A stretch of 64,000 bases of DNA, taken from NCBI RefSeq assembly GCF_009663685.2, contig NZ_RCOG02000036.1, positions 1 to 64,000 of the forward strand. The letters run 5' to 3'. This DNA comes from Cupriavidus sp. U2 (GTDB taxonomy: Bacteria; Pseudomonadota; Gammaproteobacteria; Burkholderiales; Burkholderiaceae). The translations under genes and the position numbers were made by a program. The notes below the pieces were generated by a model that saw only the letters and a list, made by a program, of their open reading frames with translations, made no database searches and was not told the DNA's origin. Positions 41,326-51,338 of the stretch are shown here, piece after piece (the first letter of the stretch is position 1; the number at the start of each line of letters is the position of its first letter).

Positions 41326-42699
41326 TCAGTGCATCAGGCCGGCGTGGGCATCGGCGGCGCGGGTCAGGTGCGTGCCGATCGATGGTGCGGACGCCGGTGC
41401 GGAAGCCGGCGCCGGATCGGCCAGCACTTCGGGGTCGTCCTGCAGTTTGCCGTCGAGCGCGTCTTCGAGCCGCTGCTGGTCGATGGCGCCGACCCAGCGC
41501 GCAATTGCCAGCGTGCCCACGGCGTTGCCGATCGTGTTGGTGATGGCGCGGGCCTCGGACATGAAGCGGTCGACACCCAGCAGCAGCACCATGCCGGCCA
41601 CAGGAATCTTGCCCATCGACGCCAGCGTGGCGGCCAGCGTGATGAAGCCGGAGCCGGTCACGCCAGCCGACCCCTTCGAGGTCAGCAACAGCACGCCCAG
41701 TACCACGATCTGGTCGGTCAGCGTCAGCGGGGTGTTGGTGGCCTGGGCGATAAAGATGGCTGCCATCGTGTAGTAGATGCACTGGCCGTCGGGGTTGAAC
41801 GTGAGGCCGGACGGCACCACCAGGCCCACCACCGGCTTTGACACGCCCGCGTTCTCGAGCTTGCGCATCAGCTGCGGCACCACCGATTCCGAAGAGCTGG
41901 TGCCAAGCACCGTGAACAGTTCGTCGCAGATATAGCGCAGGAATTTCCAGAGGCTGAAGCCCGCCATGCGCGCCACGCCGCCAAGCACGATGACCACGAA
42001 CAACAGGCACGTGAGGTACATGGTGCCCATCAGCTTGCCCAGCGACACCACCGAGCCCAGGCCGTACTTGCCAACCGTGAAGGCCATGGCGCCGAAGGCC
42101 GCCAGAGGGGCCAGGCGCATGATCATGCCGACCACCGAGAAGATGCCGTGCGTAAACGAGTCGAGGAAGTCGACCACGGGCCGTGCACGTGGCCCGATAT
42201 GCGATAGCGCGATGCCGAACAGCGTGGCGAAGACCAGGATCTGGAGGATGTCGTTGCGGGCCAGCGCGTCGATCACGCTGGTGGGTACCATGTTCATCAG
42301 GAAATCGATGAAGGAGTGGGGTTTCTCCGCAGCGTGGGTGTAGGTGGCGATGGCCTTGGCGTCGAGGTGCGCGGGGTCGACGTTCATGCCCGCACCGGGC
42401 TGCACCACGTTCACGACGATCAGGCCAAGGGCCAGGGCGAACGTGGACAGTACTTCGAAATAGAGCAGGGCGCGCACGCCGACGCGGCCCAGTTCCTTCA
42501 TGTTCTCCATGCGCGCGATGCCCAGCACCACGGTGGCGAAGATGATCGGCGCGAAGACCATCTTGATGAGCTTGATGAACACGTCGCCGAATGGCTTGAG
42601 GCTGCTGCCGAAGTCCGGGTAGAACACGCCGAGCGCAATGCCGGCCGATACGCCGAGCAATACCTGCACATACAGGTTGCCCAATAGCCTTTGAATCAT
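41326..42699 (-). CDS. dctA: DctA-family C4-dicarboxylate symporter (2)
   Basis: 457 aa multi-spanning symporter, paralog of the protein at 30205. [20 protein letters not shown], the [12 protein letters not shown] re-entrant loop, [20 protein letters not shown] and [20 protein letters not shown] are visible. The ion-site loop differs slightly from DctA-1 ([11 protein letters not shown] against TGYTFNADGTA), which may reflect a different ligand isomer. It is second in the operon and probably imports tartrate or malate. Confidence 0.94.
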
Positions 42700-42917: not shown

Positions 42918-44006
42918 TCAGGCGGCCTTGGCCTGCTTGTTGTCGGCCAGGAAGTCGCACACGGCCTTGGTGACGTCGACGGTGTTTGCCTTGCCGCCCA
43001 GGTCGCCCGTGTGCAGGGCCGGGTTGGCCGTCACGGCTTCGATGGCGGCCATCACGCGCTGGGCAGCTTCGTTTTCGCCGAGGTGCTCCAGCAGCATGAC
43101 GACGGACCAGAAGGTACCCACCGGGTTGGCGAGGCCCTTGCCCATGATGTCGAAGGCTGAGCCGTGGATCGGCTCGAACATCGACGGATAGCGGCGTTCC
43201 GGGTCGATATTGCCGGTCGGGGCGATGCCCAGGCTGCCGGCCAATGCGGCGGCCAGGTCGCTCAGGATGTCGGCGTGCAGGTTTGTGGCGACGATGGTGT
43301 CCAGCGTCTGCGGACGGTTCACCATGCGCGCGGTGGCGGCATCGACCAGTTCCTTGTCCCACGCGACATCGGGGAAGTCCTTTGCCACCTGCACGGCCAC
43401 CTCGTCCCACATCACCATGGCATGGCGCTGGGCGTTGGACTTGGTAATGACGGTCAGGAGCTTGCGCGGCCGCGACTGTGCAAGCTTGAAGGCAAAGCGC
43501 AGGATGCGCTCCACGCCCACGCGGGTCATCATCGACACATCGGTGGCGACCTCGATCGGATGGCCCTGGTGCACGCGGCCGCCCACGCCCGAGTATTCGC
43601 CTTCGGAGTTCTCGCGAACGATCACCCAGTTCAGGTCTTCGGGCGCGCAGCGCTTGAGCGGGCCATCGATGCCGGGCAGGATACGCGTCGGGCGCACATT
43701 GGCGTACTGGTCGAAGCCCTGGCAGATCTTCAGGCGCAGGCCCCAGAGCGTGATGTGGTCGGAAATCTGGTTGTCGCCGGCCGAGCCGAACAGGATCGCG
43801 TCCTTGTCGCGCAGCGCGTCGAGGCCGTTGGCGGGCATCATCACGCCGTGCTGGCGGTAGTAGTCGCCGCCCCAGTCGAAGTTCTCGAACTCGAAGCGGA
43901 AGCCGGCGCCAGTGGCTGCCAGGGCTTCCATGACTTCGCGGCCTGCCGGTACCACTTCCTTGCCGATGCCGTCGCCCGGGATGGTTGCGATCTTGTAGGT
44001 CTTCAT
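42918..44006 (-). CDS. ttuC: Tartrate dehydrogenase / D-malate dehydrogenase family
   Basis: 362 aa beta-decarboxylating dehydrogenase. Opening YKIATIPGDGIGKEVVPAGR, the NWVIVRENSEGEYSGVGGRV active-site segment, VTKSNAQRHAMVMWDE, and the metal-binding VATNLHADILSDLAAALAGS followed by LGIAPTGNI. Members oxidise D-malate to pyruvate, (+)-tartrate to oxaloglycolate, or convert meso-tartrate to D-glycerate. With the glycerate kinase downstream the tartrate-to-glycerate reaction is favoured. It is the first gene of the operon, divergent from LysR. Confidence 0.93.
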   Translation of the reverse strand: MKTYKIATIPGDGIGKEVVPAGREVMEALAATGAGFRFEFENFDWGGDYYRQHGVMMPANGLDALRDKDAILFGSAGDNQISDHITLWGLRLKICQGFDQYANVRPTRILPGIDGPLKRCAPEDLNWVIVRENSEGEYSGVGGRVHQGHPIEVATDVSMMTRVGVERILRFAFKLAQSRPRKLLTVITKSNAQRHAMVMWDEVAVQVAKDFPDVAWDKELVDAATARMVNRPQTLDTIVATNLHADILSDLAAALAGSLGIAPTGNIDPERRYPSMFEPIHGSAFDIMGKGLANPVGTFWSVVMLLEHLGENEAAQRVMAAIEAVTANPALHTGDLGGKANTVDVTKAVCDFLADNKQAKAA

Positions 44007-44099
44007 CTTGCGTCTCCTGTCTGGTCTGGGAATCTGCTTCGCCGCTGCGTTGAGCGTTGGACGAATTCTGGACGGTGGACGAAGTTTTGGATCGGCACT

Positions 44100-44122
44100 A
44101 AAGTTAAACCATTCTTAACTTT
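44100..44122. promoter_or_regulatory. Palindrome AAAGTTAA-N7-TTAACTTT, candidate LysR operator
   Basis: Perfect 8-bp arms with a 7-nt spacer lie 18 bp upstream of the LysR start, in the divergent region before the dehydrogenase operon. A further GGTTAAAGG half-site-like stretch follows at 44125. Such symmetric AT-rich sites are typical LysR targets. Binding is inferred. Confidence 0.65.
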
Positions 44123-44139
44123 CAGGTTAAAGGTGAGGG

Positions 44140-45063
44140 ATGGCCTCCAGTAGCGCGATCCAGCCGGCGGAACTGGGTTTCTTTACGGCCCTGGCCACGG
44201 CGGGCAGTCTTAGCGCGGCGGCGCGGGATCTGGGCATCACCACGGCGGCGGTCAGCAAGCGGCTGGGGCAGATGGAAACCCGCATCGGCACGCCGCTGGT
44301 CACGCGCACCACACGGCGCATGAGCCTGACCCCCGAAGGCGAGGTCCTGCTGGAACACGCACGCCGCATCCTGGGCGAACTGGATGATTTGGAACAGCTG
44401 CTGACCAGCGCCCGGGGCCGGCCCAGCGGCCTGCTGCGCGTGAATGCGACGCTGGGCTTCGGCCGCATGCACGTGGCGCCGGTGATTTCCGAGTACAGCC
44501 GCATGTACCCGGACGTGGATGTCCAGCTGCAGCTGTCGGCCGATCCGCCGCCGCTGACCGAGGATGCCTTCGATGTCTGCGTGCGTTTCGGCGAGCCGCC
44601 CGACGCGCGCATCGTGGCACGGCTGCTGGCGCCGAACCGCCGGCTGCTGTGTGCGTCGCCACGCTATCTGCGCGAGCACGGCACGCCGCAGACACCGGGC
44701 GATCTGCCGCGCCACAACTGCATCGGCATCCGGCAGGGCAGCGACGCCTACGGGGTATGGCGGCTGGCGCCGGTCAAGGGGGCGAAGGTGCGCACCGAAT
44801 CGGTCCACGTACGGGGCAACCTGACGACCAACGACGGCGAGATCGCCGTGAACTGGGCGCTGGAAGGGCACGGCATCGTGCTGCGCGCCGAATGGGATGT
44901 CGACCGATACCTGCGCAGCGGCCGGCTGGTACAGGTGCTGCCCCAGTTTGCGACGCCCGAGGCCAATATCTACGCGGTGTACCAGCAGCGGCACCAACTG
45001 TCGTCGCGCATCCGTCTGTTCGTGGATTTCCTTGCGGAAAGATTCGCAGCCTTTGGCCGGTAG
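44140..45063 (+). CDS. LysR-family regulator (DmlR/TtuA-like)
   Basis: 307 aa. HTH: AGSLSAAARDLGITTAAVSK; effector domain LRVNATLGFGRMHVAPVISE, then PNRRLLCASPRYLREHGTPQ and GHGIVLRAEWDVDRYLRSGR. It is a close paralog of the regulator at 26811. Divergent from the tartrate/D-malate dehydrogenase operon with a perfect palindrome in the gap, so it should respond to tartrate or malate and activate that operon. Confidence 0.92.
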   Translation: MASSSAIQPAELGFFTALATAGSLSAAARDLGITTAAVSKRLGQMETRIGTPLVTRTTRRMSLTPEGEVLLEHARRILGELDDLEQLLTSARGRPSGLLRVNATLGFGRMHVAPVISEYSRMYPDVDVQLQLSADPPPLTEDAFDVCVRFGEPPDARIVARLLAPNRRLLCASPRYLREHGTPQTPGDLPRHNCIGIRQGSDAYGVWRLAPVKGAKVRTESVHVRGNLTTNDGEIAVNWALEGHGIVLRAEWDVDRYLRSGRLVQVLPQFATPEANIYAVYQQRHQLSSRIRLFVDFLAERFAAFGR

Positions 45064-45132: not shown

Positions 45133-46122
45133 TCATTCGGCCTGGATATTGGCCTCCTTGACCACCTTGCCCCACTTCGCCAGGTCCGACCTGATGACGG
45201 CGGCGTACTCCTGCGGGGTGCCGCCCTGGATTTCGATGCCAGCCGTCTCCAGCTTGGCGCGCACTTCCGGCAGCTTTAGCGCGGCGTTGATCTCGGCATT
45301 GAGCCTGGCCACGATGGCCTTGGGCGTGCCGGCCGGGGCCAGGAACCCGCCATTGGTGCTGGCGTCGTAGCCCTTCAGGCCCTGTTCGTCGGCGGTTGGT
45401 ACGTTTGGCAGCGCCTTCGAGCGTTTGCGGGTGGATACGGCAAGCGCGCGGACGTTGCCGGACTTCACCTGTTCCTGGATGGCGCTGATGGTGTCGATAT
45501 AGAGCGCCGTGCGGCCGGCGATCAGGTCGGGGTGGGCTGCGGACGAGCCTTTGTACGGCACCAGCAGCACCGGCGCGCCACTGACCATGCGGAACATCTC
45601 GGCGGCCATTTCCTGCGCGCTGCCGCGGCCCGAGGTGGCCACCTTGGCTTCGGCCGGATTGGCCTTCATCCACGTCACCAGTTCGGGCACGGTCTTCACG
45701 GGCAGCTTGGGATAAGCCGCGAACACCAGCGGAATCTCGTGCGTGTACACGATGGGCTCGAAGCTCTTTTCGGGGTCCCAGCCGAGGTTCTTGAACAGGA
45801 ACTTGTTGATGTTATGGCTGCCGCCGACGATGCCGACCGTATAGCCGTCGGGCTTGGCGTTGGCCAACACGGCCGTGCCGAGGTTGTTCGAGGCGCCCGG
45901 GCGGTTCTCGACGATAAACGGTTGGCCGAGCTTGACCGAGAGCTTTTCGCCAACCACGCGTGCAATCAGGTCGATGCCGCCGCCGGCCGGCGCCGGGACG
46001 ATGATCGTGACCGGACGGGTCGGATAATTCTGAGCCGAGGCGGCGCCCGGTGCCGCCAGCAACGCGGCGCTGCAAGCCAGGGTGCCGGCCAGGGCGACGA
46101 GCTTTCGTGTGGTGAACTGCAT
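45133..46122 (-). CDS. Bug family periplasmic receptor
   Basis: 329 aa. The ATG at 46122 has AAGGAG 6 nt upstream and starts a signal peptide (MQFTTRKLVALAGTLACSAA...) ending ASAQ. Mature: YPTRPVTIIVPAPAGGGIDL, KPDGYTVGIVGGSHNINKFL and LVPYKGSSAAHPDLIAG. It is convergent with the LysR at 44140 and probably the last gene of a four-gene unit with the SDR, FAH and 2-hydroxyacid dehydrogenase genes upstream. Confidence 0.93.
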   Translation of the reverse strand: MQFTTRKLVALAGTLACSAALLAAPGAASAQNYPTRPVTIIVPAPAGGGIDLIARVVGEKLSVKLGQPFIVENRPGASNNLGTAVLANAKPDGYTVGIVGGSHNINKFLFKNLGWDPEKSFEPIVYTHEIPLVFAAYPKLPVKTVPELVTWMKANPAEAKVATSGRGSAQEMAAEMFRMVSGAPVLLVPYKGSSAAHPDLIAGRTALYIDTISAIQEQVKSGNVRALAVSTRKRSKALPNVPTADEQGLKGYDASTNGGFLAPAGTPKAIVARLNAEINAALKLPEVRAKLETAGIEIQGGTPQEYAAVIRSDLAKWGKVVKEANIQAE

Positions 46123-46207
46123 GGGGTCTCCTTTGGGAAATCGGTCAACTTGAGTCAACTCTGGGTGGTGCCGCCGGGATGCGAGGCTCCGGGGGCGCGG
46201 TCGGGTG

Positions 46208-46966
46208 TCAGCCGCGGCCGACGAACGGCATGGCGCTGGCCATGACCGTCATGTTCAATACGTTGGCGTCCAGCGGCAGCGATGCCATGTGCCGCACGGC
46301 ATTGGCCACGTGGCGCGCGTCCATCATCGGCTCCGGTGCGGTGGCGCCATTGGCCTGCAGCACGCCCCGCGTCATGCGTTCGGACAGTTCGGTCAGGGCA
46401 TTGCCGATGTCGATCTGGCCCGCCGCGATGTTGAAGGCACGGCCATCGAGCGCCAGCGCCTTGGTCAGGCCGCTGACTGCGTGCTTGCTGGCCGTGTAGG
46501 GTGCGGTGAATGGGCGCGGCGTTTGCGACGACACCGAGCCGTTGTTGATGATCCGCCCGCCCTGGGGGGACTGCCGGCGCATCAGGCCGAAGGCGGCCCG
46601 CGCGCACAGGAACACGCCGGTCACGTTGGTGTTCACCACGTTGAACCACTTGTCCAATGGCAGTTCGTCCATCGGTACGGCCGGCGCGTTGACGCCGGCG
46701 TTGTTGAATATCAGGTCGATGCGGCCGAACGCCTGCTCGATGGTGTCGAACAGCGCCTGCACGCTGGCGGGGTCGGTGACATCGCTCGGGACAGCCAGCG
46801 CCGTCTGGCCGCGCGCGGCGGCATCGGCCGCCAGTGTTTGCAGCGGGTCGGCACGGCGGCCGGCCAGCACGACAGTCCAGCCATCGTCCAGCAGGGCCAG
46901 CGCGGTCAGCCGGCCGACGCCGCTGCCGGCGCCGGTGACTAGCGCGATTCGTCGGGAAGGGTGCAT
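46208..46966 (-). CDS. Short-chain dehydrogenase/reductase
   Basis: 252 aa from the ATG at 46966, which has GGAGA upstream; the frame is open to 46978. Classical SDR features: the [15 protein letters not shown] cofactor loop, NNAGVN, the catalytic serine in [10 protein letters not shown] and YTASK with tyrosine and lysine. The arginine after the first strand (LAGRRADP) suggests NADP preference. Likely acts on a hydroxy acid or keto acid intermediate with the neighbouring enzymes; substrate unknown. Confidence 0.9.
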
Positions 46967-47038
46967 TACGGTCTCCAAATGCGTTATGCGAGGTCTGTGT
47001 CCGTTCTTGTTCGTCCGGGCAGGCAGCCGCCGCCGGCG

Positions 47039-47716
47039 CTACGTGACCGTCAGCGAGATGTGGCCGATGCCCCCCACGCTGGCGTCGACGACATCGCCGC
47101 GCTGCAGCGGGCCGACGCCAGCGGGCGTGCCAGTGAATATCAGGTCGCCGGCACGCAGCGTTACCGAGCGCGACAACATGGCAATCAGGTCTGCCACGGG
47201 CCAGATCAGGTCGGCCAGCGTGGCGCGCTGGCGCTGCGCGCCGTTGATCGCCAGCCGGATCTCGGCATCGCGCGGATGACCGACCGTGGCAGCCGGAACG
47301 ATCGGACTGCACGGTGCCGAATGGTCGAAGGCATTTGCCGGCTCCCAGGGGCCTCCGGCACGCTTGGCCTGCTGCTGCAGGTCGCGGCGCGTCATGTCGA
47401 GGCCGACGGCATAGCCCCAGATATGCGATTCGGCGTGCGCGGGGTCGATATCGCGCCCATCGCGGCCGATGGCCACCACCAGCTCCACTTCATGGCAGAA
47501 ATCGTCGGTGCCGGGCGGGTAGGGCAGCGTGCCGGTCGCGGGCGCCACGGCGGTGAACGGCTTCATGAACCAGGCGGGCATGTCGGCCGGGGCCAGCTCG
47601 TTCGCGGTCCAGCGGTAGTTGCGCCCGATGCAGAACACCCGGCCGACCGGGAAATGCGCATTGCTATTGGCCACGGCCAGGGCGCAGGGCGCCGGTGCGG
47701 GCAGGACGAATTCCAT
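47039..47716 (-). CDS. Fumarylacetoacetate hydrolase-family protein (fumarylpyruvate hydrolase-like)
   Basis: 225 aa. FCIGRNYRWTANELAPADMP, metal-site residues in FCHEVELVVAIGRDGRDI, WGYAVGLDMTRRDLQQQAKR and IFTGTPAGVGPLQRGDVV fit the FAH fold with the E-x-E...D metal site. The closest named type is fumarylpyruvate hydrolase, but the family also includes acylpyruvases and oxaloacetate decarboxylases. It lies between the SDR and the 2-hydroxyacid dehydrogenase. Confidence 0.88.
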   Translation of the reverse strand: MEFVLPAPAPCALAVANSNAHFPVGRVFCIGRNYRWTANELAPADMPAWFMKPFTAVAPATGTLPYPPGTDDFCHEVELVVAIGRDGRDIDPAHAESHIWGYAVGLDMTRRDLQQQAKRAGGPWEPANAFDHSAPCSPIVPAATVGHPRDAEIRLAINGAQRQRATLADLIWPVADLIAMLSRSVTLRAGDLIFTGTPAGVGPLQRGDVVDASVGGIGHISLTVT

Positions 47717-47749: not shown

Positions 47750-48703
47750 TCAGGTGGTCAGGCTCGCGGCGGGGCGCTTGCCCGCCAGGCCGTCGGCCAC
47801 GCTGTCGAGCACCATGCGGATCATCGCGGCGCGAGTTTCCCATGTGGCGCTGGCGCGGTGGGCCTGCAGCGTGGTGCGGTCGGACCGGCGCAGCGCTAGT
47901 GGCACGCGCGGTTCGTCCACGAAGACATCCAGGCCCGCGCCCGCAATGCGGCCGGCCTCGATCGCCTGTGCCAGGTCGTCTTCATTGACCAGACGCCCTC
48001 GGGCCACGTTGACCAGGAAGCCGCGCGGCCCCAGCGCGTCGAGCACGGCGGCATTGACGATACCTTCGGCCTTGTCGGCCGCGGCGCACAGCACCAGGGC
48101 GTCGCTGTGGCGTGCCAAATCAACCAGGTTGGGGACGAATTCGTGCGGCAGGTCGTCCATGGCGCGCAAATCCGTGTAGCGGATCGGGCACCCGAACGCC
48201 GCGGCCCGCGTGGCTACCGCGCGGCCTACGCGGCCCATGCCGACGATGCCCACCCGCATGCCGCTGAAGCGGCGTGCCAGCGGGATGGCCGACGGCTGCG
48301 GAAAGCGTTCCCATTGGCCATCGCGGACAAAGCGGTCGCCCGCGGCGATGTTGCGGCAGGTGGCAATCAGCAGGCCGATCGCCAGGTCGGCCACGTCTTC
48401 GGTCAGGGCGCCGATGGTGGCGGTGACCGGCAGCTTGCGCTCACGGCAATAGGCCAGATCGACCGCGTCGGTACCCACGCCGTTGACGGCCACCACCTTC
48501 AGGGCCGGCAGGCGTTCCAGCATCGCGTGCGAAATGCCGGTGTGACCGCCCGTGATGACAGCCTGGATCGACGGGCCGTGCTGCGCGAACCAGGCATCCT
48601 GGTCGTCGATCTCGAACAGCTTGTGTACCTGGTACAGCGAAGCCAGTTCGTCATTGGCGGCGGGAATCAAGATGGGATTCAGTTGCAGGATCTGAGGCTT
48701 CAT
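47750..48703 (-). CDS. D-2-hydroxyacid dehydrogenase (hydroxypyruvate/glyoxylate reductase type)
   Basis: 317 aa from the ATG at 48703. Motifs: DVADLAIGLLIATCRNI, Rossmann loop VGIVGMGRVGRAVATRAAAF, NVARGRLVNEDDL with the catalytic arginine, a glutamate in DVFVDEP, and the catalytic histidine in QAHRASATWETR. It reduces or oxidises 2-hydroxy acids with NAD(P). First gene of the unit, divergent from the HTH-citrate synthase. Confidence 0.9.
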   Translation of the reverse strand: MKPQILQLNPILIPAANDELASLYQVHKLFEIDDQDAWFAQHGPSIQAVITGGHTGISHAMLERLPALKVVAVNGVGTDAVDLAYCRERKLPVTATIGALTEDVADLAIGLLIATCRNIAAGDRFVRDGQWERFPQPSAIPLARRFSGMRVGIVGMGRVGRAVATRAAAFGCPIRYTDLRAMDDLPHEFVPNLVDLARHSDALVLCAAADKAEGIVNAAVLDALGPRGFLVNVARGRLVNEDDLAQAIEAGRIAGAGLDVFVDEPRVPLALRRSDRTTLQAHRASATWETRAAMIRMVLDSVADGLAGKRPAASLTT

Positions 48704-48747
48704 GAGCGGTCCGTTGTCGGCTGGAATGTGGAACTCATGGTAGTTAA

Positions 48748-48788
48748 ATGTTGATTCAGTACGCAATATTGATATATAAAATCAACAT
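48748..48788. promoter_or_regulatory. TTGAT/ATCAA repeats in the divergent promoter
   Basis: ATGTTGAT at 48748-48755 is the inverse of ATCAACAT at 48781-48788, and an inner TTGAT at 48769-48773 pairs with the same right arm over a 7-nt spacer. The region is strongly AT-rich inside GC-rich flanks and holds the likely promoters of both divergent genes. It is a candidate operator for the HTH domain of the adjacent citrate synthase fusion. Confidence 0.5.
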
Positions 48789-48821
48789 AAATAAGATGCC
48801 GCAGGGCGTGCAGGAGTGCAG

Positions 48822-49961
48822 ATGGGAGCCTGGATATCGATGGACGAAGCGTGCTCGCGCCTTGGCGTGCGGCCGCAGACGGTCTATGCGTACGTGAGCC
48901 GGGGCAAGATCGAGGTGACGTCGGACCCGGCGGATACCCGCCGCAGCCTGTATCGGGCCGAGGATGTGGCGACGCTGGCCAGGCGCAAGCAGGCCGGCCG
49001 CAAGCACGAGACGCTGGCCACCAACACGCTGTTTGGTGCCGAGCCCAGCATCCCCACGTCGATCTCGACGTTCGTGCGCGAGCGGCTCTACTTCCGGGGG
49101 CGCGACGCCGTGGCGCTGGCCGACACGGCCACGCTGGAAGACGCGGCGCGCTTGCTGTGGGATTCGGCGCAGGCGGTGGATCTGTCGTCGTCCGTGCGGA
49201 TCGACAAGCCGGGGCGTGTGGCGGCGTTCATGGCATTGGCCGAACTGGCCGCCACCGGCCATTCCACACATGGCCGCATGACGCGCGTGCTGCATGGGGA
49301 AGGTCAGGCGTTGGTGGGGCTGCTGGCCAACGCATTCGGCGCGCAGCCGGGGCAGGCACCGCTGCACGAACGCTTCGCACAGGGCTGGGGTCAGGGGCCA
49401 AACGTGGCGGAACTGCTACGTGTGGCCATGGTGCTACTGGTCGATCACGAACTGACCAGTTCGGCATTTGCCGCGCGCATCGCGGCGTCGAACGGCGCGT
49501 CGTTGCCAGCCTGCCTGCTCTCGGGGCTGTCCACGCTGTCGGGGCCGCTGCACGGCGACGCCTCGGGGCGCGTCAAGGCGCTATTCAGCGAAGTCGAGCG
49601 GCAGGGCGAAGACCAGGTCATCACGCAGTACCTGTCTACCGGTCAGCCGCTCCCAGGCTTCGGTCACCATCTCTACCCCGACGGCGACCCGCGTGCCGTG
49701 GCGCTGCTGAGCCGGTTCGCACCGCCGCCGGGTATTGCCCGGTTTATCGAACAGGCGACGCGGCTCACGGGATTGCAGCCCAATATCGATGTGGCGCTGG
49801 CGACACTGGTGACCCATTGCGCACTGCGCGACGACGCCGCGTTCGCCATGTTTGCCACGGCACGCAGCATTGGGCTCCTGGCGCACAGCCTGGAGCAGCT
49901 GGGGGTTGGGCAGGTCATTCGCCCGAGGGGCCGCTATGTCGGTGCGAGGCCTGATATGTGA
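48822..49961 (+). CDS. Citrate synthase family protein with N-terminal HTH domain
   Basis: 379 aa from the ATG at 48822 (AGGAG 5 nt upstream). The first 65 residues form a MerR/excisionase-like HTH: ISMDEACSRLGVRPQTVYAY, then RRSLYRAEDVATLARRK. The rest is a citrate synthase domain retaining its catalytic residues: histidine in GPLHGDASG, histidine in PGFGHHLYPDGDPRA and aspartate in PNIDVALATLV. It may be an enzyme, a metabolite-sensing regulator, or both. It is divergent from a hydroxyacid dehydrogenase unit, whose promoter it could control. Confidence 0.88.
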   Translation: MGAWISMDEACSRLGVRPQTVYAYVSRGKIEVTSDPADTRRSLYRAEDVATLARRKQAGRKHETLATNTLFGAEPSIPTSISTFVRERLYFRGRDAVALADTATLEDAARLLWDSAQAVDLSSSVRIDKPGRVAAFMALAELAATGHSTHGRMTRVLHGEGQALVGLLANAFGAQPGQAPLHERFAQGWGQGPNVAELLRVAMVLLVDHELTSSAFAARIAASNGASLPACLLSGLSTLSGPLHGDASGRVKALFSEVERQGEDQVITQYLSTGQPLPGFGHHLYPDGDPRAVALLSRFAPPPGIARFIEQATRLTGLQPNIDVALATLVTHCALRDDAAFAMFATARSIGLLAHSLEQLGVGQVIRPRGRYVGARPDM

Positions 49962-50129: not shown

Positions 50130-51338
50130 ATGGCAAAAAGCGAACGACTTGGCGACTGGCTGCCAAAAGAAGAGAAGGAGATCGAAGACTTTCGACGGAT
50201 TGTGGCGGCTACTGCCATGGCCCGTCACACGCGCTGGCATCCCGAAACGGTGTCCTTTCAGCGGTTCCTGGAAACCAATCCGGTGCCGCGCATGGAACTC
50301 GAGCGCGCGATCGCAGAGGCCGTTGACGAAGGTCGCACACTTGGATACCGCAATCGCGACGAGTTACTACGCGTGGTGGACTATCTACTAACCTACGCGC
50401 CGCCGTTCAGCGAGCAAAGCATGGTCGTTTGTCCGCTGAATGCGGTACTGGACTGGTTGATGTGCATGCCGTCCGGATATGCCTTCTTTCGTCGGCCCGA
50501 AGTGAACGTCCATATGCGTGCGCTGTTGAATGCGTGGTCGCGCTTTCTTTCCGGTCCCGAATCTCGTACGCACCTGAATGCCGAGAAGAATGGCTGGCTG
50601 AGCGATGCCGCCATCGAGAAGCTTGGCTTGCAGGAGTATTGTTGGGCGCCGGCCGAACCCTATGGCGGTTTTCCGTCGTGGAATACGTTCTTTACTCGCA
50701 AGTTCCGTGACGCAGCACGGCCGGTGGCTTCGCCCGATGACGATCGGTTCATCGTGAATGCTTGCGAATCTACCCCTTACCACTTTTCGGTTGGAGCGAC
50801 GGCAACCGATAAATTCTGGATGAAATCCCAGCCTTACTCCCTCGGCGACATGTTCGGCCATCGTGACCAGGCTCTCGTGGACCACTTCACCGGTGGAACC
50901 GTCTACCAGGCGTTCCTAAGTGCCTTCAACTATCACCGGTGGCATGCGCCGGTATCCGGCACGGTTGTTCATGCGTATCTCGTGCCGGGTACTTACTATT
51001 CATGCATGGAAGGCGTAGGCGAAGACCCCGAAGGGTTAAATGATTCGCAGGGCTATACCACTGCGGTGGCAACCCGGGCGGTGATTGTCATTGACCATGG
51101 TGACGCCGTGCTGGGCCAAGTGGCGTGCCTGTTCGTCGGCATGGCCGAGGTTTCGTCGTGCGTCATCGCGGTCGAGGAAGGTCAGCGAGTGGAGAAGGGC
51201 CAGGAACTTGGCCATTTTCAGTACGGGGGCTCGACCTGGTGCCTGGTGACAGGAGCCGAATTGGGTTTTGATTTGCACCATGCTCCCGGTTCAGGCGAAG
51301 TGGTTCGCGTCAATGCGTCCCTTGCGAAGTTGCGATAG
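50130..51338 (+). CDS. Phosphatidylserine-decarboxylase family protein (PsiD-like)
   Basis: 402 aa. The C-terminal half carries the pyruvoyl-enzyme core: FNYHRWHAPVSGTVVHAYLV, VGMAEVSSC and the self-cleavage region FQYGGSTWCLV, where GGST replaces the common LGST with the serine retained. The N-terminal extension with WNTFFTRKFRDAARPVASP resembles the fungal/bacterial PsiD-like subgroup that decarboxylates phosphatidylserine or aromatic amino acids. It lacks membrane helices. Standalone; the 430 bp after it (51339-51767) holds nothing I can assign. Confidence 0.85.
   Translation: MAKSERLGDWLPKEEKEIEDFRRIVAATAMARHTRWHPETVSFQRFLETNPVPRMELERAIAEAVDEGRTLGYRNRDELLRVVDYLLTYAPPFSEQSMVVCPLNAVLDWLMCMPSGYAFFRRPEVNVHMRALLNAWSRFLSGPESRTHLNAEKNGWLSDAAIEKLGLQEYCWAPAEPYGGFPSWNTFFTRKFRDAARPVASPDDDRFIVNACESTPYHFSVGATATDKFWMKSQPYSLGDMFGHRDQALVDHFTGGTVYQAFLSAFNYHRWHAPVSGTVVHAYLVPGTYYSCMEGVGEDPEGLNDSQGYTTAVATRAVIVIDHGDAVLGQVACLFVGMAEVSSCVIAVEEGQRVEKGQELGHFQYGGSTWCLVTGAELGFDLHHAPGSGEVVRVNASLAKLR

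Follow-up and report, generated by a model that had tools for sequence, protein, structure and literature searches.

In a 64,000-nucleotide stretch of DNA from Cupriavidus sp. U2 (the window), we identify a gene whose product joins an N-terminal helix-turn-helix (HTH) to a citrate synthase (CS) domain, and we propose that this protein, HTH-CS, is a one-component transcription regulator in which the HTH acts on a conserved operator and the CS fold serves as the sensor, a reading to which we assign a probability of roughly 0.78. The established elements are the fusion itself, the CS fold (by model), intact active-site residues, and an operator sequence that follows the gene into different neighbourhoods; from these we infer DNA binding, the class of ligand, a closure switch, the sign of regulation, and autoregulation.

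Domain structure of the fusion protein

The coding sequence begins with ATG at 48822, stops at 49961 and encodes 379 amino acids; this ATG is a suitable start because an alternative in-frame GTG at 48816 overlaps the sequence AGGAG (48812-48816). A prior sequence-only reading of this DNA had described an HTH joined to a CS domain at 48822-49961, and the ORF, Pfam matches and family-level HTH matches bear this out. Features of the gene are as follows.

48822..49961, + strand: HTH-citrate synthase fusion gene, 379 amino acids (ORF list, sequence, Pfam; relatives)
48822..48995, + strand: N-terminal winged HTH of MerR/excisionase type, residues 1-58 (Pfam near cut-off, family matches, model)
48873..48899, + strand: second HTH helix, residues 18-26 (PQTVYAYVS), followed by Arg27 (family conservation)
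48996..49043, + strand: linker, residues 59-74 (pLDDT below 50, full-length model)
49044..49958, + strand: citrate-synthase-fold domain, residues 75-379 (Pfam 4.1e-48; Foldseek to M. tuberculosis CitA)
49551..49553, + strand: codon of His244, first active-site histidine (alignment and sequence)
49665..49667, + strand: codon of His282, second active-site histidine (alignment and sequence)
49788..49790, + strand: codon of Asp323, active-site aspartate (alignment and sequence)

Membership of the CS family is given by Pfam Citrate_synt (PF00285; E-value 4.1e-48, 164.7 bits against a cut-off of 27) over residues 177-369; the first half of the domain (about residues 75-176), reduced in length and more diverged relative to ordinary CS, has no Pfam match. 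Among NCBIfam equivalogs for CS functional types the best score was 124.7 bits against a cut-off of 332 (PRK12350), and the remaining CS and citryl-CoA lyase NCBIfam models listed all scored below their cut-offs. The full-length model (mean pLDDT 91.3, pTM 0.78) retrieved M. tuberculosis CitA as a Foldseek match for the CS domain (E 4e-14, TM 0.71).

Taken alone, the window protein falls below the Pfam cut-offs for HTH_17 (1.9e-5; 25.2 bits, just under 27), MerR_1 (20.0 bits, under 21.6) and MerR (16.2 bits, under 28.2). The assignment is firmer at the family level, where 44 of the 56 members aligned reach E <= 1e-3 against HTH_17 (best 3.2e-11), and it is this family-level similarity, together with the winged-HTH fold, that places the domain with the MerR/excisionase type. 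The HTH is modelled with the topology b-H-H-b-b-H (pLDDT 86.7). Submitted alone to Foldseek, this model returned weak matches to Xis (the top match), RacA-DNA, BldC-DNA and SoxR, the best at E 0.017 and none reaching E 0.001. The second helix is presumed to be the DNA-recognition helix. Across the family rows Arg27 occurs in 150/150, Thr20 in 149/150 and Ser or Thr at position 26 in 150/150, and the motif T-[LVI]-Y-x-x-[VAI]-[ST]-R is present in 149/150, the single exception (L137) having a misplaced start.

Active-site residues

Alignment with the two full-length CS genes of the same genome revealed all seven CS active-site positions (His209, His244, His282, Arg291, Asp323, Arg348 and Arg367), comprising the two active-site histidines, the one aspartate, and the oxaloacetate-binding histidine with three arginines; the prior statement that both histidines and the aspartate are intact therefore holds. 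The full set of seven is found in 137 of 150 family rows and, when distinct CS parts are counted (six sister-group rows included), in 135 of 146, and His244 is retained in 143 of the 150 rows.

Two groups depart from this set. In the HTH-less CS proteins encoded opposite HTH-CS in many loci (L081-L139, described below), Glu replaces the active-site Asp323 in 45 of 45; these partners probably include Caulobacter CitB, which nonetheless complements E. coli gltA. A sister clade (L021, L022, L024, L026, L027 and L029) has kept the HTH and lost both His244 and Asp323. The DNA around L021, L022, L024/L151, L026 and L029 contained no exact copy of the core operator defined below, and members of this clade are candidate pseudo-enzyme regulators having another operator.

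Distribution and phylogeny

The nearest named relatives of the window protein are from Cupriavidus (C. pauculus, 83%; Cupriavidus sp. EM10, 91%). Queried with this protein, 106 of 200 family genomes gave a match at E <= 1e-30, as did 30 of 300 order genomes at E <= 1e-20, some of the latter matches being CS without HTH. From a scan of named genomes, 80 loci were kept out of 545 confirmed; these span Cupriavidus, Achromobacter, Variovorax, Burkholderia, Rhizobium, Mesorhizobium, Caulobacter, Methylobacterium, Devosia and others, and in the genus Caulobacter a relative occurs in 56 of 61 genomes.

The genome of origin contains six CS-family open frames: one gltA-like, one prpC-like, HTH-CS, and three short citryl-CoA-lyase-like frames in which no HTH was seen by eye. 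The three short citryl-CoA-lyase-like CS proteins of this genome (L004, L005 and L006; C26, C23 and C33) adjoin genes resembling class III CoA-transferase, acyl-CoA ligase and CitE-type lyase, again by eye.

In an unrooted tree of 78 rows from which the HTH had been removed, a branch supported at 100/99 has all 54 of the HTH-bearing CS domains on the same side, which is most simply explained by one fusion event. Within this set, 48 rows of operator type form one group (89/99) and the remaining six, which correspond to the degenerate clade noted above, form its sister group. Recent duplication of a partner CS to give the regulator was rejected, since the 100/99 branch parts the partners from HTH-CS.

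Divergent neighbouring genes

The prior description of a unit encoding a hydroxyacid dehydrogenase, FAH, SDR and Bug protein, divergent from HTH-CS, was upheld by Pfam.

47750..48703, - strand: D-2-hydroxyacid dehydrogenase, first gene of the divergent unit and predicted target (Pfam; conserved beside HTH-CS)
47039..47716, - strand: FAH-family hydrolase (FAA_hydrolase; Pfam)
46208..46978, - strand: SDR oxidoreductase (Pfam)
45133..46158, - strand: Bug/TctC periplasmic binding protein (Pfam)

The divergent dehydrogenase and Bug genes are kept in seven of eight loci of the window's clade (L065-L067, L069-L071 and L126), with losses of FAH in L066 and of SDR in L070; in the eighth (L068) the contig ends at 165 bases. 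Elsewhere the divergent gene differs. It encodes a second CS in 45 of the 80 loci, the HTH motif being present in none of these 45 partners, and Pfam scans of ten neighbour proteins from other lineages identified six class III CoA-transferases and one member of a citrate-transporter family; the divergent neighbour of L140 had no Pfam match. In L075, HTH-CS comes last in an operon that also encodes SDR, MFS transporter and glyoxalase-fold proteins. Judged by sequence, the divergent neighbours are all of predicted acyl-CoA or oxo/hydroxy-acid type, and targets that would handle such compounds fit a ligand of CS type.

Several features of these surroundings were recorded incidentally. The six divergent CoA-transferase genes (L092, L109, L128, L134, L143 and L144) are about 460-520 codons long, and Pfam matches nothing but their second half. 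Adjoining the Bug unit in the window (42918-45063) is a gene for tartrate dehydrogenase (TIGR02089, 550 bits versus 470) divergent from that of a TtdR-like LysR regulator, and, taken together, the region seems geared to hydroxy-dicarboxylic acids. Downstream of HTH-CS, a phosphatidylserine decarboxylase with a PSDC domain is encoded at 50130-51338; in L066, too, such a gene lies downstream of HTH-CS.

A predicted operator in the intergenic region

TTGAT/ATCAA repeats had been noted between the divergent genes, and we find them within 48751-48785, where they form part of the following arrangement.

48764..48788, no strand: predicted operator, CAATATTGATATATAAAATCAACAT (conserved across loci)
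48769-48785, no strand: core inverted repeat TTGAT-N7-ATCAA within the predicted operator (conserved across loci)
48751..48756, + strand: further TTGATT repeat, possible -35 of the HTH-CS promoter (conserved in clade alignment; promoter role by eye)
48737..48766, - strand: possible promoter of the divergent unit (alignment inspected by eye)

The extended site CAATNTTGAT-N7-ATCAA has one exact occurrence in the window. Allowing up to two mismatches there are three, against 0.15 in shuffled sequence; these include a reading of the same place from the opposite strand and one at 42558. In the 6.45 Mb genome the core TTGAT-N7-ATCAA occurs at five places, and the four beyond the operator each lie within an open frame of more than 150 codons, so that control looks local; a wider regulon in this genome was rejected on these grounds.

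Inspected by eye, TATAAA at 48775-48780, inside the operator, could partner the -35 TTGATT in an HTH-CS promoter, and the divergent unit could be served by TTGCGT (48766-48761) and TACCAT (48742-48737) with an 18-nt spacing, its -35 overlapping the operator edge. A consensus scan did not reproduce these hexamers and for HTH-CS proposes 48769/48797 instead. The TATAAA within the operator suggests that HTH-CS represses its own gene, if the promoter chosen by eye, and not the pair given by the scan, is used. Activation in the manner of MerR across a long spacer was rejected: no consistent 19-20 nt spacer was seen by eye in the upstream regions.

Association of the predicted operator with HTH-CS across genomes

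With no more than one mismatch, TTGAT-N7-ATCAA occurs within 135 bp upstream of HTH-CS in 66 of the 80 named loci, including 45 of 45 having a divergent HTH-less CS, compared with 17 of 3807 random windows from the same loci. In 58 of the 80 loci an exact core is found no further than 130 bp upstream; elsewhere in 1.109 Mb there are just 13. Ten of these 13 come as pairs, near -2.7 and -2.9 kb, in five loci of Burkholderia type; there HTH-CS stands further down an operon, and the paired cores sit at that operon's own divergent promoter. When 70 upstream regions outside the window's clade were surveyed for their most frequent repeat, without searching for this sequence, TTGAT-N7-ATCAA ranked first, with 49 of the 70 (shuffled maximum, 2), again with a spacer of seven bases. 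The TCAA at positions -6 to -3, outside the search seed, is kept in 54, 57, 58 and 58 of 58 distinct sites; the full sign is accordingly RTCAATMTTGAT-N7-ATCAAYAT, with three TCAA-type half sites. Among 20 sequences of the window's clade, a block around CAATATTGAT-N7-ATCAAYAT is conserved within an otherwise variable intergenic region, L070 having TTGAC where others have TTGAT.

Fourteen of the 80 loci have no site (up to one mismatch) within 135 bp upstream. Five of these have a site upstream of the operon instead; in L137 it lies at +46 of the misplaced start, three Duganella loci have TTGAC/GTCAA, and L078 begins 484 bases into its contig. By the same search, L098, L114, L122 and L124 have no site nearby.

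Across the 200 family genomes the extended pattern gave 123 matches, of which 104 are less than 5 kb upstream of an HTH-CS gene and 19 lie away from one, many of them in small genomes; a reversed control pattern gave none in all 200. The pattern is present in 81 of 106 genomes with HTH-CS and in 11 of 94 without (Fisher 2.6e-21, related genomes being non-independent), and within 5 kb of 37 of the 125 HTH-CS match rows there is no exact extended site. In the window's genus, 12 of 14 gene-bearing genomes have the exact extended site beside HTH-CS (of the exceptions, G360 has no match, being one base off, and G481 has a match far away); it is absent from all eight genomes lacking the gene. These distributions mark, at the level of sequence, a conserved and putatively cognate operator at the promoters of neighbouring genes, as expected of a one-component regulator.

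Proposed mechanism and alternatives

Citrate synthase closes around oxaloacetate and then acyl-CoA. We envisage that the MerR/excisionase-type winged HTH would bind the operator in the divergent promoter region, with the C-terminal CS-fold domain forming the usual CS dimer and acting as sensor. A ligand of CS type, whether a 2-oxo- or 2-hydroxy-dicarboxylate (e.g., oxaloacetate), an acyl-CoA, or a hydroxyacyl-CoA (a relative of citryl- or malyl-CoA), would close the two CS sub-domains; closure would move the two HTHs and alter their grip on the operator, and thereby switch both the divergent metabolic gene and that of the regulator itself. The predicted flexibility of the linker (pLDDT under 50) counts against a rigid switch. 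In a broader and more tentative form, HTH-CS may represent a widespread and so far unrecognised family of proteobacterial transcription factors in which a catalytically competent CS senses oxaloacetate-like acids and acyl-CoA by its open-to-closed movement, while the MerR-like head reads the operator and sets expression of alternative CS, class III CoA-transferase and hydroxyacid-pathway genes.

That the protein is an ordinary citrate or methylcitrate synthase, its HTH vestigial or structural and without a part in gene regulation, would agree with its intact active site and with public plasmid records, which name it citrate synthase or nothing among the 30 matches listed. We consider this very improbable: the HTH residues are kept at least as well as the catalytic ones (compare Arg27, 150/150, with His244, 143/150), the operator is conserved, and the genome already has gltA-like and prpC-like genes. 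A vestigial HTH, or one used for dimerization only, was rejected as unlikely, each fitting the operator data poorly. The TTGAT/ATCAA site might alternatively belong to another, linked factor, the HTH having some other role, and TATAAT-like letters in the spacer allow that part of the conservation may reflect a promoter. However, the site tracks HTH-CS across different partners and into positions upstream of operons, it is missing from eight of eight genus members without the gene, and invariantly spaced TCAA and TTGAT arms would be unnecessary for a promoter alone; the attribution to a different regulator is therefore improbable.

The sequence-only reading had suggested a possible trigger enzyme, reporting the level of acyl-CoA or oxaloacetate to the neighbouring promoter; on this view an active CS-type enzyme is also a DNA-binding regulator, with substrate supply or turnover tuning its binding to DNA. 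One half of that proposal, an HTH that reads the neighbouring promoter, gains strong support from the co-conserved operator. For the enzymatic half the evidence is mixed. The seven active-site positions are kept in most family rows and distinct CS parts (137/150 and 135/146), and the modelled fold matches M. tuberculosis CitA by Foldseek, but the same residues would also serve mere ligand binding, and the sister clade has kept the HTH while losing His244 and Asp323. In the published account, moreover, C. crescentus CitC, a probable HTH-CS, failed to rescue E. coli lacking gltA, whereas CitB succeeded; this failure leaves room for another substrate. Catalysis coupled to regulation is on balance unlikely, if less so than the two alternatives above, and we retain the sensor-regulator as the preferred reading.

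If this reading is true, citrate synthase, the enzyme that opens the TCA cycle, would have been converted into a transcription factor with a precisely predicted operator; gene control would then read acyl-CoA or oxo-acid status directly, and the protein would offer a ready biosensor scaffold. It would also explain why Caulobacter CitC resembles citrate synthase yet fails in complementation. Databases name members of the family citrate synthase, so that regulators may be entered as TCA enzymes in genome-scale models.

Comparison with known systems

One-component regulators with an enzyme-derived sensor are already known. No paper on a CS-HTH fusion regulator was found in searches of an open-access collection that omits most subscription journals and preprints. 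By model, HTH-CS has the winged-HTH fold common to the MerR superfamily (Xis, BldC, RacA, SoxR) and is without the long MerR dimerization helix pair, in place of which the CS domain presumably dimerizes. The best structural match of that domain, M. tuberculosis CitA (citrate synthase 2), is an enzyme without HTH and has 25% identity in the structural alignment. PutA, a trigger enzyme, combines an enzyme and DNA binding in one chain, a plan it shares with HTH-CS; the ribbon-helix-helix and flavin redox chemistry are peculiar to PutA, and catalysis by HTH-CS is putative.

In Caulobacter crescentus, the adjacent genes citB (CCNA_03757) and citC (CCNA_03758) were published as CS paralogues, with 30% and 32% identity to CitA, respectively; an E. 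coli strain without gltA was complemented by CitB but not by CitC, and neither "helix-turn-helix" nor "MerR" appears in the main text on these proteins (PMC7083601). In another study the CCNA_03757 promoter served as a negative control for IscR (PMC11475020). We find three CS genes in C. segnis: a citA-like gene, an HTH-less CS (320 bits), and a divergent HTH-CS (173 bits) with the operator, the latter two having 31.6% and 32.5% identity, respectively, to C. segnis CitA. Because this layout and these identities parallel the values published for CitB and CitC, the HTH-CS of C. crescentus is probably CitC. The predicted target there is a CS, as against a dehydrogenase unit in the window.

The closest plan is that of MocR/GabR regulators, in which, as their abstracts describe, a winged HTH of about 60 amino acids precedes an aminotransferase-fold domain of about 350 (PMC4944035, PMC5734734, PMC6917764, PMC5320631). 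Common to both is a short N-terminal winged HTH followed by an enzyme-fold sensor of about 320-350 amino acids with its active site largely kept. HTH-CS differs in having a CS fold and not a PLP aminotransferase, a MerR/excisionase-like and not a GntR HTH, and no PLP; with HTH_17/MerR and Citrate_synt as its Pfam domains it is no member of that family, and we liken it to MocR/GabR in its proposed manner of working.
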